From the NCBI RefSeq assembly GCF_028735875.1, contig NZ_CP117834.1, positions 1,414,001 through 1,478,000 on the forward strand: a DNA stretch of 64,000 nucleotides, read 5' to 3'. Source of the stretch: Shouchella hunanensis (lineage in GTDB: Bacteria > Bacillota > Bacilli > Bacillales > Bacillaceae_D). Within the stretch, counting starts at the first letter, position 1. Each line of letters begins with the position of its first letter. Under the pieces are notes generated by a model. The model was given only the letters and a program-made list of their open reading frames with translations, searched no databases and was not told the DNA's origin. Below, in pieces: positions 2,741 to 52,186 of this stretch. Both the position numbers and the translations under genes were made by a program.

Positions 2741-3775
2741 TTATTCAGCCGAAAATCGGTAAACGGTTTCATGTTTATAAACATCTTCCGGTTTCAGCCA
2801 AATAGATGGTAATCCTTTATGTTGGAGAGCGGCCGGGTGTCCCTGCGTTTCTAAACATAAGCCAGCGTGCTTTTCTATCTTTTTGCCTTCTTTTAGAAGC
2901 AACTCGTCCTCCAAACTATTTCCTGTGTAAAACACAACACCTGGCTGTGTCGTTCTCATCACAAGCTTACGCCCAGACTCTTCATCATAAATAACAGCTT
3001 TGACCTCTTTGGTATGATCCAACAAAAAATAATGATCATATCCATTCTTTGCTACCTGCAGCTGATGGTGTGTTAAATGAATTCGTTCACCAAGTCTTTT
3101 TTCTGATCTAAAGTCAAACGGTGTATGAGTAGTTGAGCGAATAAATCCAGTTGGAGCAAGGGTTTCATCTAGTTCCAAGTAGCTATCACTTTCCAGCATA
3201 ATCACGTGATTTAATACCGACCTTTTCACCCCACCTGTAAGATTAAAATACGTATGATTCGTGAGTGTAACAGGCATCATTTCATCTACCGTTGCATGAT
3301 AATCAATAATCCATTCATTTTCATTTGTAACGATGTATGTAATCGTCGTTGTGAGCTTTCCAGGATAATGATCCATTTCCATTTCTTCCGCTGTTAGAAT
3401 GGCACCAACCCGATCTTCATGCTGAAAAAGAGTCACGCTAAACAGCTGTTGATGCAAGCCATTCCCTCCACCATGCAGATGATGATGACCATCATTTGCT
3501 GATAGCGTATGTTTTTTTCCGTTTTTTATAAAACAAGCATCCTTTATCCGACCTGCAACTGGCCCAATTAACGCGCCGAAATACGGCTTATTTTCTTTAT
3601 AATGAGAAAGATCTGCATAAGAAAGGACGACATTTTCATGTACACCTCTCTTATCTGGGACGATTAAATCCGTCACGATCCCTCCAAAGTTAAGAAATTT
3701 TAAACACATGCCGTGATCATTTTCAAGAATCGTTTCTGTCCATCCGTTACTTGTTTGCTGGTTTATTGCTTTCAT
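2741..3775 (-). CDS. galM: Aldose 1-epimerase (galactose mutarotase)
   Basis: A 344-residue cytoplasmic mutarotase that interconverts alpha- and beta-anomers of aldohexoses such as galactose and glucose. Family landmarks are visible: the N-terminal FGGIVTDLIVPD, the substrate-binding NDGHHHLHGG, the catalytic-His region LTNHTYFNLTGG, and the C-terminal LETQGHPAALQH with the general-base Glu. The start chosen is the ATG at 3775, because the upstream TTG at 3793 lies inside the AAGGAG ribosome binding site. It stands next to an SplB-like radical SAM gene that ends 21 bases before it. No other galactose genes are near, so a general mutarotase role is likely. Function is well supported by the motifs. 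Confidence 0.92.
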   Translation of the reverse strand: MKAINQQTSNGWTETILENDHGMCLKFLNFGGIVTDLIVPDKRGVHENVVLSYADLSHYKENKPYFGALIGPVAGRIKDACFIKNGKKHTLSANDGHHHLHGGGNGLHQQLFSVTLFQHEDRVGAILTAEEMEMDHYPGKLTTTITYIVTNENEWIIDYHATVDEMMPVTLTNHTYFNLTGGVKRSVLNHVIMLESDSYLELDETLAPTGFIRSTTHTPFDFRSEKRLGERIHLTHHQLQVAKNGYDHYFLLDHTKEVKAVIYDEESGRKLVMRTTQPGVVFYTGNSLEDELLLKEGKKIEKHAGLCLETQGHPAALQHKGLPSIWLKPEDVYKHETVYRFSAE

Positions 3776-3796
3776 GAAAAACCACTCCTTCAACCT

Positions 3797-4618
3797 TTAA
3801 GGTAGAAATCCCTCTTTACTGATGAAAAGTTGATTCTCTGAAAAATACTTAAGAAAACGACGTTTCACCTTCCATATGGCATCTCTCTCATACCATTTCT
3901 CTAGCCCTAGTTCAGTATAAAGTGAAGCCATTTTAAGCTTTTCTGTACGCTTGCCTCCTGAACCATCACCCATAAAAAAATCATCTATACAGACACGGTC
4001 CACTACATCTGCCAACATTTCAGGAAACGCTTTTGAACTCGGCAGTAGGGGCGCTACTGTCGCTTGAATTGGAATTCCGTTCTCTTTGAGACACTGTAAC
4101 GCTTTTACTCTTCCTTGGATCGGAGGTGCCTGAGGTGCAAACTGTTTTCGAATAGCATCTGAATCCGTTTCAATGGTCATACTTACACGCACGCGATTAC
4201 CTAGACGTTTCAATAGGTCCATGTCCCTTGTAACAAGGGCGCCTCTTGTTTGAATGAATAAAAAATCTGGTTGTTCCCTTACCATGGCTTCAAGCAAGGA
4301 TCGAGTGACCCGCTCTCGATGTTCAATTGGCTGATAAGGATCTGTGCTTGAAGACATAAAGATTGTCACTGGCCCATGGTTCTTTGCACGACGTATTTCT
4401 TTTTCTAGAAGCGAAGCTATGTCTCTTTTAATAGTAACCCAATTTCCCCATTCTTCCTCTTGAAACAGTTGAACGGGCATTTGCCTGACATAGCAATACG
4501 AACAAGCAAAGGAACATCCAACGTATGGATTTAAGGTGTGAGAATAGCCAGCCAAAAAACCACTCGCTTTAGTTAAAATTCGTTTCGGTTGCGATTCCCT
4601 CATAGAAAGACCTTTCAT
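3797..4618 (-). CDS. SplB-like radical SAM protein
   Basis: A 273-residue radical SAM enzyme of the SplB / Rv2578c-like group. The iron-sulfur motif CxxxCxxC is seen in NPYVGCSFACSYCYVRQMP, and downstream segments FMSSSTDPYQPIE and FIQTRGALVTRDMDLL match this family. Members are related to spore photoproduct lyase but are shorter, and for most the substrate is unknown, so DNA repair should not be assumed. The ATG at 4618 is favoured because GGGGTGA lies just upstream. A longer version from a TTG at 4717 would overlap the small membrane-protein gene at 4689-4850. It is followed closely by galM and may share its transcript. Confidence 0.82.
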   Translation of the reverse strand: MKGLSMRESQPKRILTKASGFLAGYSHTLNPYVGCSFACSYCYVRQMPVQLFQEEEWGNWVTIKRDIASLLEKEIRRAKNHGPVTIFMSSSTDPYQPIEHRERVTRSLLEAMVREQPDFLFIQTRGALVTRDMDLLKRLGNRVRVSMTIETDSDAIRKQFAPQAPPIQGRVKALQCLKENGIPIQATVAPLLPSSKAFPEMLADVVDRVCIDDFFMGDGSGGKRTEKLKMASLYTELGLEKWYERDAIWKVKRRFLKYFSENQLFISKEGFLP

Positions 4619-4688
4619 CTTACTCACCCCTAACCACTCGGTTCCCATAAAAAGAAAACGATTACATAATTCTCTTCTCTTACACTTT

Positions 4689-4850
4689 TCACATTCGCTT
4701 GCGATTCCAATCAACAAGTAGCCCTAGCACTAGTCCTAAACCAATATACAGAACATAGGAGTTTGTAAATAAGCCAAACGAAAACCCTACTGTAAGGCCG
4801 ATTATGGTCGCGCTACCTAACCTTAGCGACTTGCGTTTTCTGCCATTCAT
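4689..4850 (-). CDS. Small two-helix membrane protein, unknown
   Basis: A 53-residue protein that starts at an ATG preceded by AAGGGGAAG at good spacing. After a basic start (MNGRKRKSLRLG) it has one hydrophobic stretch (SATIIGLTVGFSFGLF), a short turn, and a second one (YVLYIGLGLVLGLLV), then ends in DWNRKRM. This is the layout of a small helical-hairpin membrane protein with both ends in the cytoplasm. It lies 70 bases ahead of the radical SAM gene in the same direction and may be co-transcribed. I do not recognise a family. The ribosome binding site and the clean hydrophobic pattern support it as a real gene. Confidence 0.65.
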   Translation of the reverse strand: MNGRKRKSLRLGSATIIGLTVGFSFGLFTNSYVLYIGLGLVLGLLVDWNRKRM

Positions 4851-4936
4851 TCGTTCTTCCCCTTACCGTTTTTGTTACAAGTAGTCTACCATGCGTCGTT
4901 TAAACAGAAAAGCGATCACACTCTTCTTCGAATTAG

Positions 4937-4981
4937 TTGAAAACAAATCATTATAATGCTAATATGAGCATATAATCATAT
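4937..4981 (+). promoter_or_regulatory. Promoter and CzrA-type operator of the zinc efflux operon
   Basis: A -35 TTGAAA (4937-4942) and a -10 TAATAT (4960-4965) are separated by 17 bases. An interrupted inverted repeat ATATGA-8-TCATAT (4962-4981) overlaps the -10 and the start of transcription. This agrees with the imperfect palindromes bound by zinc-responsive ArsR repressors, so the operator is assigned to the repressor encoded just downstream. Confidence 0.65.
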
Positions 4982-5000
4982 ATTGAAATGAGGGAATGCA

Positions 5001-5306
5001 ATGTCATCGTCCTATAATGATCTTGATCAAGAAACACTGTTCATTGTTTCTCAAAGCTTTAAAGCCTTAAGCGATCCAACCCGGATTCGAATTCTTCATT
5101 TACTGGCAAACAAAGAATGCTCAGTAGGAGAAATTGTTGAACACCTTGAACTAGGGCAGTCTACTGTTTCTCATCAACTACGATTTTTGAAAAATTTAAG
5201 ACTTGTTAAATCAAGACGTGCTGGAACAACGATTTATTATTCACCTCAAGATGAACACGTACTCGACATTTTAGAGAAAACCATTGAACACGCCACACAC
5301 GATTAA
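5001..5306 (+). CDS. czrA: Zinc-sensing ArsR-family repressor, CzrA type
   Basis: A 101-residue winged-helix repressor. The ArsR core is clear ([16 protein letters not shown], then [22 protein letters not shown]). Metal ligands in the C-terminal helix match the CzrA alpha5 site exactly in spacing: Asp84, His86, His97 and His100. This is the zinc/cobalt-sensing arrangement described for Staphylococcus aureus CzrA, where metal binding releases the operator. No Cys metal motif is present in the recognition helix, so it is not an arsenic or cadmium sensor of the CxC type. It lies 37 bases before the CDF exporter gene, and its own operator is upstream, which makes a self-regulated zinc efflux operon. 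Confidence 0.88.
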
Positions 5307-5343
5307 ACAAATTGAATCCTATTAAATGATAAGGAGGGATACA

Positions 5344-6231
5344 ATGGGTCACCATCACCATGGACATAGTCACCACCATTCTACTGGTCAAGCAAATAAA
5401 CGAAACTTACTCTTTGCCATGCTCATTATTGGTAGCTGGATGTTTATCCAGTTCATTGGCGGTTTGTGGACAGGGAGCCTCGCTCTTTTAGCTGACGCCG
5501 TTCACATGTTTAATGATTTTGCTAATCTATTTATTAGCTTTCTTGCTATTACACTTGCAGCAAAAGCGGCAACAAAGACAAGAACGTTTGGGAACCATCG
5601 CTATGAAGTACTTTCCTCGTTATTAAACAGTGTCATGTTGCTAGTCATTGCGTTTTTTATTGTTCGTGAAGCGATTGGACGATTCATTGAACCTGAAGAA
5701 GTCATGGGCAGTGGCATGATTGTATTAGCGTTTATTGGATTGCTTGCCAACCTTGGAGCCATGTATGTACTTATGCGTGGCGATGTAAAAAATAACTTGA
5801 ATATGCGCGGCGCTTATTTACATGTTTTGAGCGATACATTAGGTTCTGTTGCCGCTGTACTCGCAGGCGTCATTATTTTAACAACTGGTTGGTATCTAGC
5901 CGATCCTATTTTAAGCATCGTCATTGCCTTAATGATTGCTTTATCGGCAATACGGCTTCTTAAAGACACCTTGCACGTGCTTATGGAAGGTACCCCTAAG
6001 TATATTGATATTGACGAAGTAAACGCTAAAATACTTGCAATTGATGGCGTTAAACGTGTTCATGATCTCCACGTTTGGACCATTACTTCTGGGATGGATC
6101 GCTTAAGTGCTCATGTCGTCATTGACGCTGACAAGAAAATTGACGCACAAGACGTACTTATGCGCGCAAACGATTATTTTCAACATACACTTCATATCGA
6201 AAACACGACGATCCAAATTGAACGAGAATAA
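5344..6231 (+). CDS. czcD: CDF-family zinc/cation efflux transporter, CzcD type
   Basis: A 295-residue cation diffusion facilitator that exports Zn2+ and similar ions in exchange for protons. A His-rich N-terminus (MGHHHHGHSHHHSTGQ) precedes six predicted membrane helices. The metal-site motifs are visible in helix 2 (LLADAVHMFNDFANL) and helix 5 (LHVLSDTLGSVAAV). The cytoplasmic C-terminal domain has HDLHVWTITSGMDRLSAHV, typical of this family. The ATG at 5344 is chosen because AAGGAGG lies directly in front of it and inside the longer reading frame. Co-transcription with the CzrA-type repressor fits zinc detoxification; cobalt and cadmium are possible additional substrates. Confidence 0.92.
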   Translation: MGHHHHGHSHHHSTGQANKRNLLFAMLIIGSWMFIQFIGGLWTGSLALLADAVHMFNDFANLFISFLAITLAAKAATKTRTFGNHRYEVLSSLLNSVMLLVIAFFIVREAIGRFIEPEEVMGSGMIVLAFIGLLANLGAMYVLMRGDVKNNLNMRGAYLHVLSDTLGSVAAVLAGVIILTTGWYLADPILSIVIALMIALSAIRLLKDTLHVLMEGTPKYIDIDEVNAKILAIDGVKRVHDLHVWTITSGMDRLSAHVVIDADKKIDAQDVLMRANDYFQHTLHIENTTIQIERE

Positions 6232-7928: not shown

Positions 7929-7962
7929 TCGTTTAACTCCTTCATAGATCTACTACTGTTAT

Positions 7963-7993
7963 AGTATTGATAATGATTTTCATTGTCAATACT
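7963..7993 (-). promoter_or_regulatory. Fur box (extended palindrome)
   Basis: The core GATAATGATTTTCATTGTC (7969-7987) matches the classical 19-base Fur consensus at 16 positions. It is embedded in a 31-base near-perfect palindrome whose ends are AGTATTGA and TCAATACT. It lies 35 bases upstream of the siderophore-binding protein start, and the divergent tRNA-like RNA begins about 115 bases to its right. Confidence 0.85.
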
Positions 7994-8110
7994 ATTTTGT
8001 TAAAGTCTACAAAAAAGCACTAAAACTTATAGAACCGAGCTTGTTTAATAAAAAGCACTTCTTTTTCTATTTTCTTCATTACTATCGTCCCTTATACTTA
8101 TCTGTATCAA

Positions 8111-8307
8111 GCCTCTGTAGCTCTAGAAGGGAAGAGCGCCGGAAAACAAATTGTATAAACCGGGTCGCAAGGCAAGGGTTTCAGAAGCACCGAAAAGCAA
8201 ATTAGCTGAGACAGGTGGAATTCCTGTCGGTGAAATTCCGTAGGGAAGCGTGTTCTCCCCTAGCCTATGCTTACGAAAGGAGTGCGGGTTCGAATCCCGT
8301 CAGAGGC
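8111..8307 (+). ncRNA. tRNA-like RNA with a ~120-nt insertion
   Basis: Both ends of a tRNA are present but far apart. The 5' part has acceptor strand GCCTCTG (8111-8117), TA, and a D-arm GCTC / GAGC (8120-8123 and 8134-8137) whose loop contains GGG. The 3' part has a T-arm GCGGG / CCCGT (8284-8288 and 8296-8300) with loop TTCGAAT, directly joined to CAGAGGC (8301-8307), which pairs perfectly over 7 bp with the 5' strand. Between them lie 146 bases instead of about 22, holding several short hairpins (GACAGG/CCTGTC at 8210-8228, TAGGG/CCCTA at 8241-8262). A -10-like TATACT at 8093-8098 would start transcription just before 8111. No normal anticodon arm is seen. It could be an interrupted tRNA gene, a remnant, or a structured sRNA. 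I cannot assign a known family. Confidence 0.5.
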
Positions 8308-8349
8308 TTCCCCCATCCACATCTGATGATAATTCTAAAACCATCGTTT

Positions 8350-8838
8350 TTATACCCAAATTCGATTTAACTGTTTTGAATACAAAGCCAGGGCATTACG
8401 ATACTGGAGAATATTTTGATCCTGTGTTGTTTCAAGTAGACACGTTAGTAACACTTCCATCGCTTTTTCATGTTCTCGAACGTTATAAAGGGTTAACGAA
8501 TAAAAGACTTTCAAGGCATTGTCTTCTGGAAATTTCGTTAAACCGAATTCTAGCGTTGATTTAGACTCTTCGTACATTCCAAGCGTTCTATATGTACTGC
8601 CAAGTCCTAAAAAGGCACCTTTTAACTCTTCTTCGTCTAACCCAAGCTCAATCGCTTTTTCATAGTGAGGATACGCTTTTTTCTCATTCCCTTTTGAATC
8701 ATAGGTTGATGCGAGGTAATAGTGAAGATCACCATCATGAGAGTTGCCTTCGAGCCATTTATGTAGGTGTTTAAAAGCATCGCTATCGTTCCCTTCACGT
8801 AAAAGCAAGTCGATAGTCTCTTTTTGCTGTTGGTTCAT
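8350..8838 (-). CDS. TPR-repeat protein
   Basis: A 162-residue soluble helical protein with tetratricopeptide repeats. The pattern of about 34 residues is seen in LHYYLASTYDSKGNEKKAYPHYEKAIEL, then AFLGLGSTYRTLGMYEESKSTLEFGL, then LKVFYSLTLYNVREHEKAMEVLL, giving about three to four repeats. The start at 8838 has AAGGAG upstream. Such short TPR proteins are common in Bacillaceae and usually act as protein-protein adaptors; no specific partner can be named from context. Its 3' end converges on the tRNA-like RNA at 8111-8307, with about 40 bases between. Confidence 0.85.
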   Translation of the reverse strand: MNQQQKETIDLLLREGNDSDAFKHLHKWLEGNSHDGDLHYYLASTYDSKGNEKKAYPHYEKAIELGLDEEELKGAFLGLGSTYRTLGMYEESKSTLEFGLTKFPEDNALKVFYSLTLYNVREHEKAMEVLLTCLLETTQDQNILQYRNALALYSKQLNRIWV

Positions 8839-14016: not shown

Positions 14017-14844
14017 CTATGCATTCTTCTTTGTTTTTGCTGTTTTTTTCTTTGCAGGGGCTTTCTTCTTTTTTGTTTTATCAATGGATGCTTGAAGAGC
14101 AGACATAATATCGGTTACATTTGAAGTGTCTTTCGCTTTTTCGGTTGTTGTAACAACTTCCTCACCAGACTTTTTCTTTTCAATTAAGTCCATAAGGGCG
14201 TGCCGATACTCATCTTGATAGTTATCAGGATCAAACGATACTGTAAGTTGATCAATGAGCATTAAAGCTGCATCCAATTCTTTTTTTACGATCTTTTGCT
14301 CTTGAGGTACATTTGGAACATCTTCCATTTTCCTTACTTCATCAGGAAAATGGATGGTTTCCATCATCAACCCATTTTCATATACGCGCACAATAGCAAG
14401 CTGTTCTTTTGAACGAATGATTATTTTGGCAACTCCAATCTTACCCGACTGAACCAGCCCTTCACGTAATAACCCATAGGCTTTGTTTCCACCGGAATCA
14501 GGTGCTAAGAAATAGCTTTTTTCAAAATAAATCGGATCAATCTCTTCTAATTTAACGAAATCAATAATTTCTACCGCTTTGTCCTCTTGTTCTTTCTTGA
14601 GCTGTTCTAAATCCTCTGCATCAAGGACAACAAACTTATTTTTTGCATACTCATATGCCTTCACAATATCTTCGTTCTTCACTTCTTCATCGCAATCGGG
14701 ACAAACTTTTTTATAGTTTATCGGGGTATGACATTTTTTATGAAGTTGTCTTAATTTAATGTCTTTGTTTTCCGTAGCGGTATGGAGCTTAACAGGAATC
14801 GTAACGAGGCCAAAACTAATGCTCCCTTTCCAAACTGTGTGCAT
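14017..14844 (-). CDS. ku: Ku protein for non-homologous end joining
   Basis: A 275-residue bacterial Ku homodimer subunit, which binds double-strand DNA ends and recruits LigD. The N-terminus MHTVWKGSISFGLVTIPVKLHTA is the Ku core opening. A CHTPINYKKVCPDC segment follows, and later FLAPDSGGNKAYGLLREGL and ARIIIRSKEQLA-like text match the family. The C-terminus is a Lys-rich tail (KKKKAPAKKKTAKTKKNA), common in bacterial Ku and thought to bind DNA or aid ligase contact. It is divergent from ligD, with 86 bases between the two start codons, so the promoters are back to back. In Bacillus such pairs act in spores and stationary phase under SigG control; I could not confirm a SigG promoter by eye. 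Confidence 0.95.
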   Translation of the reverse strand: MHTVWKGSISFGLVTIPVKLHTATENKDIKLRQLHKKCHTPINYKKVCPDCDEEVKNEDIVKAYEYAKNKFVVLDAEDLEQLKKEQEDKAVEIIDFVKLEEIDPIYFEKSYFLAPDSGGNKAYGLLREGLVQSGKIGVAKIIIRSKEQLAIVRVYENGLMMETIHFPDEVRKMEDVPNVPQEQKIVKKELDAALMLIDQLTVSFDPDNYQDEYRHALMDLIEKKKSGEEVVTTTEKAKDTSNVTDIMSALQASIDKTKKKKAPAKKKTAKTKKNA

Positions 14845-14930
14845 GCAGTCACATCCTTTTTATCCTTAATATGCAGGAAAAGCTAATAATTTATGTGTCG
14901 AGGGAAAAACTAACTCGTGAGGTGAGATGA

Positions 14931-16742
14931 TTGAAACCAATGTTAGCTACAAATGCATCTACTATTCCTAAAGGAGACCAATGGTCATATGAGGTAAAAT
15001 ACGATGGATTTCGTTGCTTGCTTCATTGGGACGAGGACGGACCAGCATTATACAGTCGGAATAAAAAAGAATTATCGAAAGCATTTCCAGAAATTATTCA
15101 TGCATGCTTACAGATTGAAGAGAAAGTAAAAAAGCATCTTCCACTTATTTTAGATGCAGAGATTGTATCATTAGTGAACCCTTATCAAAGTAGCTTCTCT
15201 ATTGTGCATCGACGCGCAAAACTTCGTACCAAAGAACAAGTTACGATCTATTCCCAACGCTTGCCTGTTTCCCTTATGATTTTTGATCTATTAATGGAAA
15301 AAGGCATTCCTTTAACAGACCTTCCGTTAAAGGATCGGAAACGAAAGTTGAATGTACTTCAAAGCCAGACACCAACGTTAGCCATTATTCAACCCTATAA
15401 AAACCCTAAAGAGATAGAGACGATTGTGAAGAAATACAATGGAGAAGGCATTATAGCGAAAAAAAATACAAGCACTTATGTGCCTAAACGATCCTCCCAG
15501 TGGGTCAAGATAAAGAACTATCGCTATGTTCATGTCATTTTAACAGAGTACGATAAACAAAATGGTTATTTTCAAGGCGGGGTGTATCAAGAAAATACAT
15601 ACGTTCCTATTGTTCAGTTTTCCCATGGTTTAAAGACTGAAGACCGAAAAGCGTTAGCCACTCTTTTTGAAAAAAACGGGGAACGTGTCGGCAAAGAACG
15701 GTGGTCTTTACCTCCTTCTATTTGCGTGAAAATTGGTTGCATTAGTTTTGATGGCGATCAACTTAGAGAACCGTTTTTTCAATCGTTTTTACTAGAAGAA
15801 AAGGTGGAGGATTGCACGTGGCAAAACCTTCTTTCTCAGCTACAGCCTTTGCCTGCCAACGTGGTGATTACGAGTGAGAATAAACCGATTTGGCCAGCTA
15901 TACAATATACAAAAATGGATTATTTGCAGTACTTACATGCGGTTGCATCAACTATGCTCCCTTTTTTAACAAATCGGCTACTTACAACTATTCGTTATCC
16001 TCACGGTGCCGAAAGCGAAGCCTTTTATCAAAAAAATTGCCCAGATTATGCACCCGAATTTATCCTTACACATAACCGTGACGGCATAAACTATATTGTT
16101 TGTAATTCACTTGAATCGCTACTGTGGTTAGGGAATCAGCTCGCACTAGAGTATCATCTTCCTTTCCAGAAAAAAGATCAATCATGCCCCTCAGAAATTG
16201 TGTTCGACTTGGATCCGCCTAGTGTGGAACAATTTTCTCTTGCTGTAAAAGCAGCTCTAGCGTTAAAGGAAGTAATTTCATCCTTTGGCTTAATGGTTTA
16301 CATCAAAACGTCGGGAAATAAAGGCTTGCAGCTATACCTGCCTTTACCAGAAGAAACCTTTACTTATCAAGAGACAAGGGTTTTCTGTCAGTTTATTAGT
16401 AGGTATGTGGTAGAACAGCATCCAGAACATTTTACACTTGAACGCTTGAAGAAAAATCGAGCAGGACGATTATACGTTGATTATTTGCAGCATGACGAAG
16501 GAAAAACCATCATTGCGCCTTATTCGCCTCGTGGACATAGCCGTGGTTTAGTTGCCACTCCTCTATATTGGGAAGAGGTAACAAATCAATTGAACCCCTC
16601 CCTTTTTACACTGACACATGTTGTAAGCCGTTTAAAATTAGAGGGAGACCCTTTTCGAACGTTTCGAGAAAATGTACATGAGCAAGGAAAGCGATTTTCA
16701 GATGTTCTTCTACATCTACAATCACTCCTTTCTAAAACGTAA
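14931..16742 (+). CDS. ligD: Multifunctional ATP-dependent DNA ligase/polymerase LigD
   Basis: A 603-residue end-joining enzyme. The N-terminal ligase domain (to about residue 310) has the nucleotidyl-transfer lysine K23 in EVKYDGFRC, the conserved LDAEIVS, EGIIAKK, and WVKIKNY. The C-terminal part (from about 325) is an archaeo-eukaryotic primase-type polymerase domain with EIVFDLDPPS (metal-binding aspartates) and IKTSGNKGLQLYLPL. There is no separate phosphoesterase domain, as in Bacillus LigD. The start is TTG at 14931, with GAGGTGAGA upstream; no ATG gives a better start. It repairs broken DNA together with Ku, encoded divergently next to it. Domain order is ligase then polymerase, as expected for Bacillaceae. 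Confidence 0.95.
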   Translation: MKPMLATNASTIPKGDQWSYEVKYDGFRCLLHWDEDGPALYSRNKKELSKAFPEIIHACLQIEEKVKKHLPLILDAEIVSLVNPYQSSFSIVHRRAKLRTKEQVTIYSQRLPVSLMIFDLLMEKGIPLTDLPLKDRKRKLNVLQSQTPTLAIIQPYKNPKEIETIVKKYNGEGIIAKKNTSTYVPKRSSQWVKIKNYRYVHVILTEYDKQNGYFQGGVYQENTYVPIVQFSHGLKTEDRKALATLFEKNGERVGKERWSLPPSICVKIGCISFDGDQLREPFFQSFLLEEKVEDCTWQNLLSQLQPLPANVVITSENKPIWPAIQYTKMDYLQYLHAVASTMLPFLTNRLLTTIRYPHGAESEAFYQKNCPDYAPEFILTHNRDGINYIVCNSLESLLWLGNQLALEYHLPFQKKDQSCPSEIVFDLDPPSVEQFSLAVKAALALKEVISSFGLMVYIKTSGNKGLQLYLPLPEETFTYQETRVFCQFISRYVVEQHPEHFTLERLKKNRAGRLYVDYLQHDEGKTIIAPYSPRGHSRGLVATPLYWEEVTNQLNPSLFTLTHVVSRLKLEGDPFRTFRENVHEQGKRFSDVLLHLQSLLSKT

Positions 16743-52107: not shown

Positions 52108-52110
52108 CGA

Positions 52111-52183
<73 letters not shown>

Positions 52184-52186
52184 AAG

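Follow-up and report, generated by a model that had tools for sequence, protein, structure and literature searches.

A tRNA-like noncoding RNA family in Bacilli with a conserved domain in place of the anticodon arm

Overview

A gene for a tRNA-like noncoding RNA lies on the forward strand of Shouchella hunanensis contig NZ_CP117834.1, at nt 8111–8308 of the window (the whole 64,000 nt stretch that was analysed). It is about 198 nt long, from nt 1 to the discriminator, and it belongs to an RNA family that was not found in Rfam or in the open-access papers searched; the existence and overall architecture of this family are secure. The RNA is conserved and its acceptor and inner helices covary, and maturation by tRNA enzymes is likely, judging from the signals that adjoin its ends. 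We consider it probable that the RNA is an independently transcribed, trans-acting mimic of tRNA that does not decode. Very few bacterial RNAs are known that have a free tRNA-type acceptor end but are non-decoding, tmRNA being the classic example, and the RNA described here would be a second such family besides tmRNA, one without a match in Rfam 15.

Architecture of the RNA

The limits of the gene follow from homologue ends and covariation, the start at nt 8111 and an end at nt 8307–8310 being common to most homologues in sequence matches. All parts described here are on the forward strand. The acceptor stem pairs GCCTCTG (nt 8111–8117) with CAGAGGC (nt 8301–8307), and the 3' strand continues into discriminator T8308 and a trailer U at nt 8309 (the element as a whole spans nt 8301–8309, its last two positions being assigned from the N73 and U74 counts given below). 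A tRNA-type spacer, T8 A9, separates the acceptor 5' strand from the D-arm (nt 8120–8137), which has a loop of the tRNA type (A14 R15 .. G18 G19. A21); a possible fifth D-stem pair, T8124–A8133, would leave the tRNA-type loop AGAAGGGA. The T-arm (GCGGG/TTCGAAT/CCCGT, nt 8284–8300) is conserved and abuts the acceptor. Acceptor, D-arm and T-arm are all present with tRNA spacing and tRNA-type loop motifs, and each lies where the preliminary description of this DNA had placed it. Between nt 26 (G8138) and the T-stem there are 145 nt (146 had been counted earlier), where about 22 nt would be expected for an anticodon arm and variable loop.

Hairpin P3 (nt 8139–8163), in which two CCGG strands enclose a 17 nt loop, stands at the anticodon-arm position. 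It is followed by a central domain (nt 8170–8266) lying inside helix P4 (AGGC..GGG/CCC..GCCT) and containing inner hairpins. Hairpin P7 (ACAGG..CCTGTC, nt 8211–8228) is dispensable, being deleted in 7 of 80 copies. Two near-copies of GGTGAAATTCC flank it (nt 8211–8242), and recombination between them could explain the deletion. The best conserved element of the RNA is the motif CCGTAGGGAAGCGTGTT (nt 8238–8254), most of which is retained even in distant copies; GTAGGGAAGCGNGTT is present in all 16 sequences of alignment A3, the divergent copies L166, L167 and L168 among them. Directly 5' of the T-arm, at the position of a variable arm, is a small hairpin (nt 8269–8283; helix 9 of the covariation count) that hardly varies and shows a C/G-GNRA-C/G pattern in 68 of 80 copies.

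Distribution

A search for homologues, proposed in the preliminary description as a check, returned RNA matches in 9 of 41 genomes of the family; at the level of the order, 37 of 397 genomes, from 16 of 135 genera, were positive. Identities were 80–100%, and the matches mostly extended from nt 1 to the discriminator. These searches, like those with models R1 and R2 below, used a first-look filter in which few candidates were scored per genome, so that absence is no proof. Four of the 37 positive genomes (G065, G169, G223 and G270) carry partial or decayed copies only. A pattern scan of genome contigs gave 68 loci with organism names, the hosts including Shouchella, the Bacillus pumilus and B. 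licheniformis groups, Priestia, Metabacillus, Peribacillus, Neobacillus, Cytobacillus, Mesobacillus, Lysinibacillus, Kurthia, Domibacillus, Jeotgalibacillus and Alkalicoccobacillus; Priestia megaterium is among the carriers.

When 398 genomes of the class were searched with model R1, strong matches (70–245 bits) were found in ten, four of which are outside the order (G422, G423, G553 and G735), and the next-best match was a remnant in G272 at 34.7 bits. G422 is the sole genome of its family in the set, and in the family of G553 one of 23 genomes matched, G553 itself. The same model gave four strong matches among 299 genomes of a phylum sample, and a model of the inner domain (R2) matched 4 of 398 phylum genomes, all of them Bacilli. 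R1 also returns many weak matches of tRNA length (about 20–33 bits); one that was checked is a tRNA called by ARAGORN beside L167.

Copies also occur on plasmids. BLAST searches returned 19 plasmid records, 16 of which (Cytobacillus, Peribacillus, Listeria, Priestia and Bacillus arachidis) have copies spanning >80% of the query with 89–96% identity. The plasmid copies begin at query base 22, corresponding to nt 8111 of the window, and stop at query bases 218–221. A P. simplex plasmid copy (82%) lacks part of the T-arm and a B. methanolicus plasmid copy is partial. The 27 nt match to a Limosilactobacillus plasmid (1 of the 19 records) reads as chance. No phage record was found with most of the RNA; the 20 matches listed of 51 were of 27–31 nt and fell at the T-arm, and one short T-arm match of this kind was also found with L175. 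Scans of virus contigs with two patterns gave 10 loci, of which L150 and L153 are true copies and the other eight, having no BLAST match to the RNA, read as chance hits. A third pattern found no copies on viral contigs.

Truncated copies were seen in several places. Genomes G219 and G387 have second, decayed copies without the T-arm 5' strand (L045, nt 7954–8117; L046, nt 8020–8162) and additionally retain a near full-length copy. Isolated 3' fragments were observed at L126 (nt 2304–2375), L102 (nt 2647–2719), L148 (nt 5726–5819) and L117 (nt 893–981), in Cytobacillus, Domibacillus and other Bacillus records, and the T-stem of the L126 fragment is altered on both sides. The remnant in G272 (L179, about nt 8001–8062) is 62 nt long and has kept both acceptor strands and the -10 box, with the middle deleted; it is a case of loss in progress.

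Covariation and folding

The alignment comprised 80 distinct copies judged full-length by script, after exclusion of 10 loci with partial or decayed copies, copies truncated at locus ends, identical sequences and shorter duplicate loci. Mean column identity over the 80 aligned bodies is 90%, and the flanks diverge between genera. Three readings had been offered at the outset: an interrupted tRNA, a remnant or a new structured sRNA. The homologues and their covariation bear out the last of these, and they rule out a chance resemblance or a decayed tRNA. 'Remnant' does not fit the window copy, because the bodies are conserved while the flanks differ; the interrupted tRNA did not hold up either and is considered in the next section.

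RNAalifold predicted 45 pairs from the 80 copies. In these, 99.4% of the cells are paired, and there are 74 two-sided changes distributed over 11 pairs. Shuffled alignments gave 96.7% paired and 9.9 two-sided cells, and none of 500 reached the observed values. Related sequences may beat shuffles without any structure, and a second control, which preserves relatedness, consisted of sliding one strand by 1–3 columns; this reduced pairing to 32.6–50.9% and two-sided cells to 0–8. The acceptor has two-sided changes in four of its seven pairs, with the first three pairs being G-C, C-G and C-G in 79 of 80 copies. P3 and P4 covary clearly: P3 has 18 two-sided compensated cells over two pairs, and P4 has two-sided changes in four of seven pairs, one of which occurs as GC, AU, CG and UA. 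P7 shows two-sided changes at one pair. The D-stem and T-stem vary on single sides only, and their assignment therefore rests on geometry and conservation. Several inner pairs are invariant across the copies and many pairs never vary. The covariation sought in the acceptor, the insert and the T-arm is seen in the first two, the T-arm having single-side changes only.

The minimum-energy fold of the window RNA contains the acceptor, D-arm, P3 and T-arm, and its energy is mildly unusual (z −2.08, with 6 of 200 shuffles equally good). The corresponding values for L167 and L168 are −0.24 and −0.04, and the minimum-energy folds of these two do not reproduce the inner structure or the D-arm of the window RNA. 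Since energies barely beat those of shuffles and the distant folds differ, support for the fold comes from the covariation that close copies show, and the inner structure of L167 and L168 is uncertain. A candidate pseudoknot between AACA in the P3 loop and TGTT is invariant in alignment A1; it is compensated in L166 (AACG/CGTT), includes a G-U pair in L168 and is broken in L167.

Transcription and maturation signals

A TATAAT-like hexamer (≤1 mismatch) is located 5–16 nt upstream of G1 in 60 of 80 copies, compared to a mean of 24.4 and a maximum of 37 in 200 shuffles. In the window this is TATACT (nt 8093–8098), 12 nt upstream of G1, the -10-like box that had already been pointed out. At the other end, N73 is either A (54 of 80 copies) or T (26), and a T follows it in 77 of 80 copies; among non-redundant flanks the figure is 59 of 60 (local background 34%; p about 1e-26). 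A downstream U stimulates RNase Z. The conserved U74 is what would be expected if this enzyme processed the RNA as it does CCA-less tRNAs; in B. subtilis, RNase Z cleaves CCA-less tRNA precursors 3' of the discriminator and is inhibited by a C there, according to PMC7479834. CCA is encoded right after N73 in L166 and L167, both from outside the order.

These signals suggest a pathway in which the RNA would be transcribed from its own -10 box a few nucleotides upstream, its 5' leader would be trimmed by RNase P, RNase Z would cut after nt 73, before the conserved U, and the CCA-adding enzyme would finish the 3' end, the CCA being encoded in the two relatives just mentioned. What follows maturation is a guess: the elbow and CCA end might let the RNA dock with machinery that handles tRNAs, be it a synthetase, EF-Tu or the ribosome, while a role other than decoding might fall to the central domain, which lies where tmRNA has its extra domains. 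The near-fixed first three acceptor pairs and the restriction of nt 73 to A or U would fit recognition by a synthetase. The A/U mix at nt 73 and the near-fixed GCC/GGC do not amount to a clear synthetase identity set (identity sets and viral tRNA mimics are treated in PMC9976931).

The absence of a normal anticodon arm, noticed from the start, was borne out. A conserved 5 bp anticodon stem with a 7 nt loop and U33 was not seen, and ARAGORN in default mode made no call on the window RNA or on any of 83 copies. With the insert swapped for the anticodon arm of a tRNA-Thr, a tRNA was called at 8 of 10 junctions. When introns are allowed, the program reads the native stretch as tRNA-Glu(CTC) with a 110 nt intron, and none of 200 mononucleotide shuffles gives a tRNA call. 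This call, the tRNA ends, the CCA encoded in two relatives, a copy beside tRNA genes and the slightly better conservation of the ends (mean column identity 96.8%, against 93.6% for the insert) would suit a tRNA gene with a self-splicing or enzyme-spliced intron, the product of which would be an ordinary decoding tRNA. We regard such an interrupted gene as very unlikely. The intron-tolerant calls conflict across the 83 copies (Glu, Ile, Gly, Leu, His and Thr, with 27 giving no call), showing that neither an anticodon stem nor a splice site is conserved, and the insert is itself highly conserved, with none of the Rfam intron families matching it up to E=10. Known group I introns are longer than the insert of this RNA.

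Comparison with known RNAs

No Rfam 15 family matched the window RNA at gathering thresholds, in agreement with the earlier failure to place it in a catalogued family; within nt 8000–8420 there were only sub-threshold matches up to E=10. At the copies elsewhere, no family reached threshold at the loci searched, although at L175 the tRNA model aligns below threshold (18.9 bits; gathering 29) with the 3' portion of the copy.

The nearest parallel in layout is tmRNA (RF00023), which also has a free tRNA-like acceptor end and T-arm and a large domain replacing the anticodon arm; the tmRNA model matches the window at the T-arm only, with 8.5 bits (gathering 47). The shared layout and this weak match could suggest an RNA that, like tmRNA, rescues or binds ribosomes, carrying an amino acid on its CCA end into the A-site without codon reading. 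Several features speak against this and make it an unlikely explanation. Pair 3–70 is C3-G70 in 80 of 80 aligned copies, not the alanine identity pair G3-U70. The RNA has a D-stem, which tmRNA lacks, and is about 200 nt long. No conserved reading frame was seen, a tag frame of the tmRNA type included: on inspection of the alignment, many copies have indels and a stop, and in those with GCAAGGTAA the GCA..TAG frame found in the window is terminated at codon 3. Finally, tmRNA is near-universal, whereas the window RNA is patchy in its presence and accessory.

Compared to canonical tRNA (RF00005), and specifically the tRNA-Thr of the window (nt 52109–52184), the RNA shares the GCC..GGC first acceptor pairs, the TA spacer, a GCTC D-stem, the T-loop, the lack of an encoded CCA and the T after N73, but it differs in having 145 nt of other structure instead of an anticodon arm and variable loop. 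The window holds five ordinary tRNAs elsewhere, found by ARAGORN and by Rfam at curated thresholds. The YrlA Y RNAs are likewise bacterial noncoding RNAs that mimic the D- and T-arm. In YrlA the acceptor is closed and the RNA ends elsewhere, whereas the ends of the window RNA are the acceptor; no Y RNA family matched within nt 8000–8420 up to E=10. The yjdF riboswitch has an overall tRNA-like shape (PMC9142559) but is a cis-regulatory aptamer, and it too gave no match up to E=10. Some viruses, brome mosaic virus for example, also have tRNA-like structures that mimic tRNA and can be charged, some of them without an anticodon (PMC9976931); these structures are parts of viral genomes, in contrast to the free-standing bacterial gene described here. 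Some Listeria plasmid RNAs (NiCo riboswitch, rli28 and ratA) are described by Rfam matches in PMC9484302 and PMC6985202. They are different RNAs, since none of seven loci of the RNA, one of them on a Listeria plasmid, has an Rfam match at gathering thresholds. The open-access literature searched yielded no description of the RNA.

Neighbouring genes and mobility

Protein clustering at 122 loci revealed no general neighbour of the RNA, the widest clusters being an ABC ATPase (17 loci), a LigD-like protein (12), a sigma factor (11) and a short-chain dehydrogenase (10). In several genera, the RNA stays next to the same genes within the genus. The periplasmic-binding-protein gene is a direct neighbour at Shouchella loci only, and Shouchella genome G037 has the same two flanking genes and no RNA. 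A link to the Fur-type promoter of the neighbouring gene finds no support, and that neighbour looks coincidental. Genes for Ku and a LigD-like protein were observed at nt 14017–16742 of the window, 6 kb from the RNA; proximity of LigD-like genes to the RNA is seen in Shouchella, the B. pumilus group and one Alkalihalobacillus. Ku was discarded as a partner, there being no association: it is present in 32 of 37 RNA-positive genomes and in 325 of 397 overall (match list counted by eye).

A cis-acting element for a neighbouring gene (a riboswitch, T-box or Fur-linked leader) might be thought of at eight loci of the Bacillus pumilus group, where an ORF starts 16–34 nt downstream of the RNA, and the preliminary description had remarked on TPP- and cobalamin-like words. 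These words look coincidental: GCTGAGA and GGTGAAATTCC are kept in L166 and absent from L167 and L168, and no TPP or cobalamin riboswitch family of Rfam, nor any other riboswitch, matched up to E=10 within nt 8000–8420. With no general neighbour, both flanking genes of the window RNA on the opposite strand and conservation that ends at nt 73 or just beyond, a cis-acting role is barely credible.

One Listeria plasmid copy and two Kurthia copies have a similar upstream flank and a terminator-like inverted repeat downstream, and this common flank and hairpin make it seem that the gene and its flanks moved as a unit. In the virus record L150/L202, the RNA lies amid phage-type replication and recombination genes (named by eye), and the flanks match a Siminovitchia fordii locus (L108). 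In the virus record L153/L201 (G1169), the RNA shares its upstream flank with the Listeria plasmid copy, and where it meets prophage-type genes its final two bases have been replaced. In this plasmid-like Listeria region (L201 nt 3560–5435, and L153), the RNA gene is bordered directly on its 3' side by prophage-type lysis genes (by eye) and a DUF3800 gene.

Its sharp ends, scattered contexts and carriage on plasmids and in prophage-like records, together with the Listeria-like copy at a prophage junction and the truncated 3' copies, could also be those of a passive mobile repeat or an integrase landing site, the 'acceptor stem' then being no more than its inverted-repeat ends. This we judge quite unlikely. 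There is a single match in 35 of the 37 positive genomes (few candidates being scored in each) and one copy in the genome of the window (G000), the inner helices covary, conservation extends beyond the body to a promoter box and U74, and within several genera the adjoining genes are the same. The tRNA mimic is an accessory gene, gained and lost yet strongly constrained where it is kept, and found on chromosomes, plasmids and prophage-like records; its accessory status follows from plasmid and virus carriage, the truncated and decayed copies, and the G037 flanks without the RNA.

Possible roles

A more specific proposal can be offered tentatively, as a possibility that we do not favour over others: the RNA may belong to a new class of tRNAs dedicated to something other than decoding, processed like a tRNA and perhaps charged, in which the conserved domain replaces codon reading. 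It might then be an RNA-only analogue of tmRNA, or an aminoacyl carrier for a non-ribosomal or regulatory reaction, encoded by an accessory gene of Bacilli that is found on plasmids too. If the RNA is charged, it would represent another use of aminoacyl-RNA; if it is not, its mimicry of tRNA may be directed at a tRNA enzyme. Direct tests of processing, charging and ribosome binding are feasible, the RNA being present on plasmids and in organisms close to laboratory species (the B. pumilus and B. licheniformis groups and Priestia megaterium). The family adds a new covariance model to those used in annotation, and its gene is a possible landing site for integrating elements.

Distant copies

The most divergent copies vary in the acceptor, L166 having G1-U72 and L168 an acceptor that is partly broken. 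P3 of L167 can be read as a hairpin of 17 nt (5+7+5), the size of an anticodon arm, without U33, which hints at a possible descent from tRNA. The L167 copy comes after tRNA-Glu, a 96 nt tRNA called Ile(TAT) and tRNA-Trp. At L175 (nt 8011–8468; G422), where tRNA genes for Glu, Ile (TAT; 96 nt) and Trp precede the diverged copy of the RNA, the region includes a DUF5131 gene, a GMT-wHTH gene and a TnpB-like gene (by eye).
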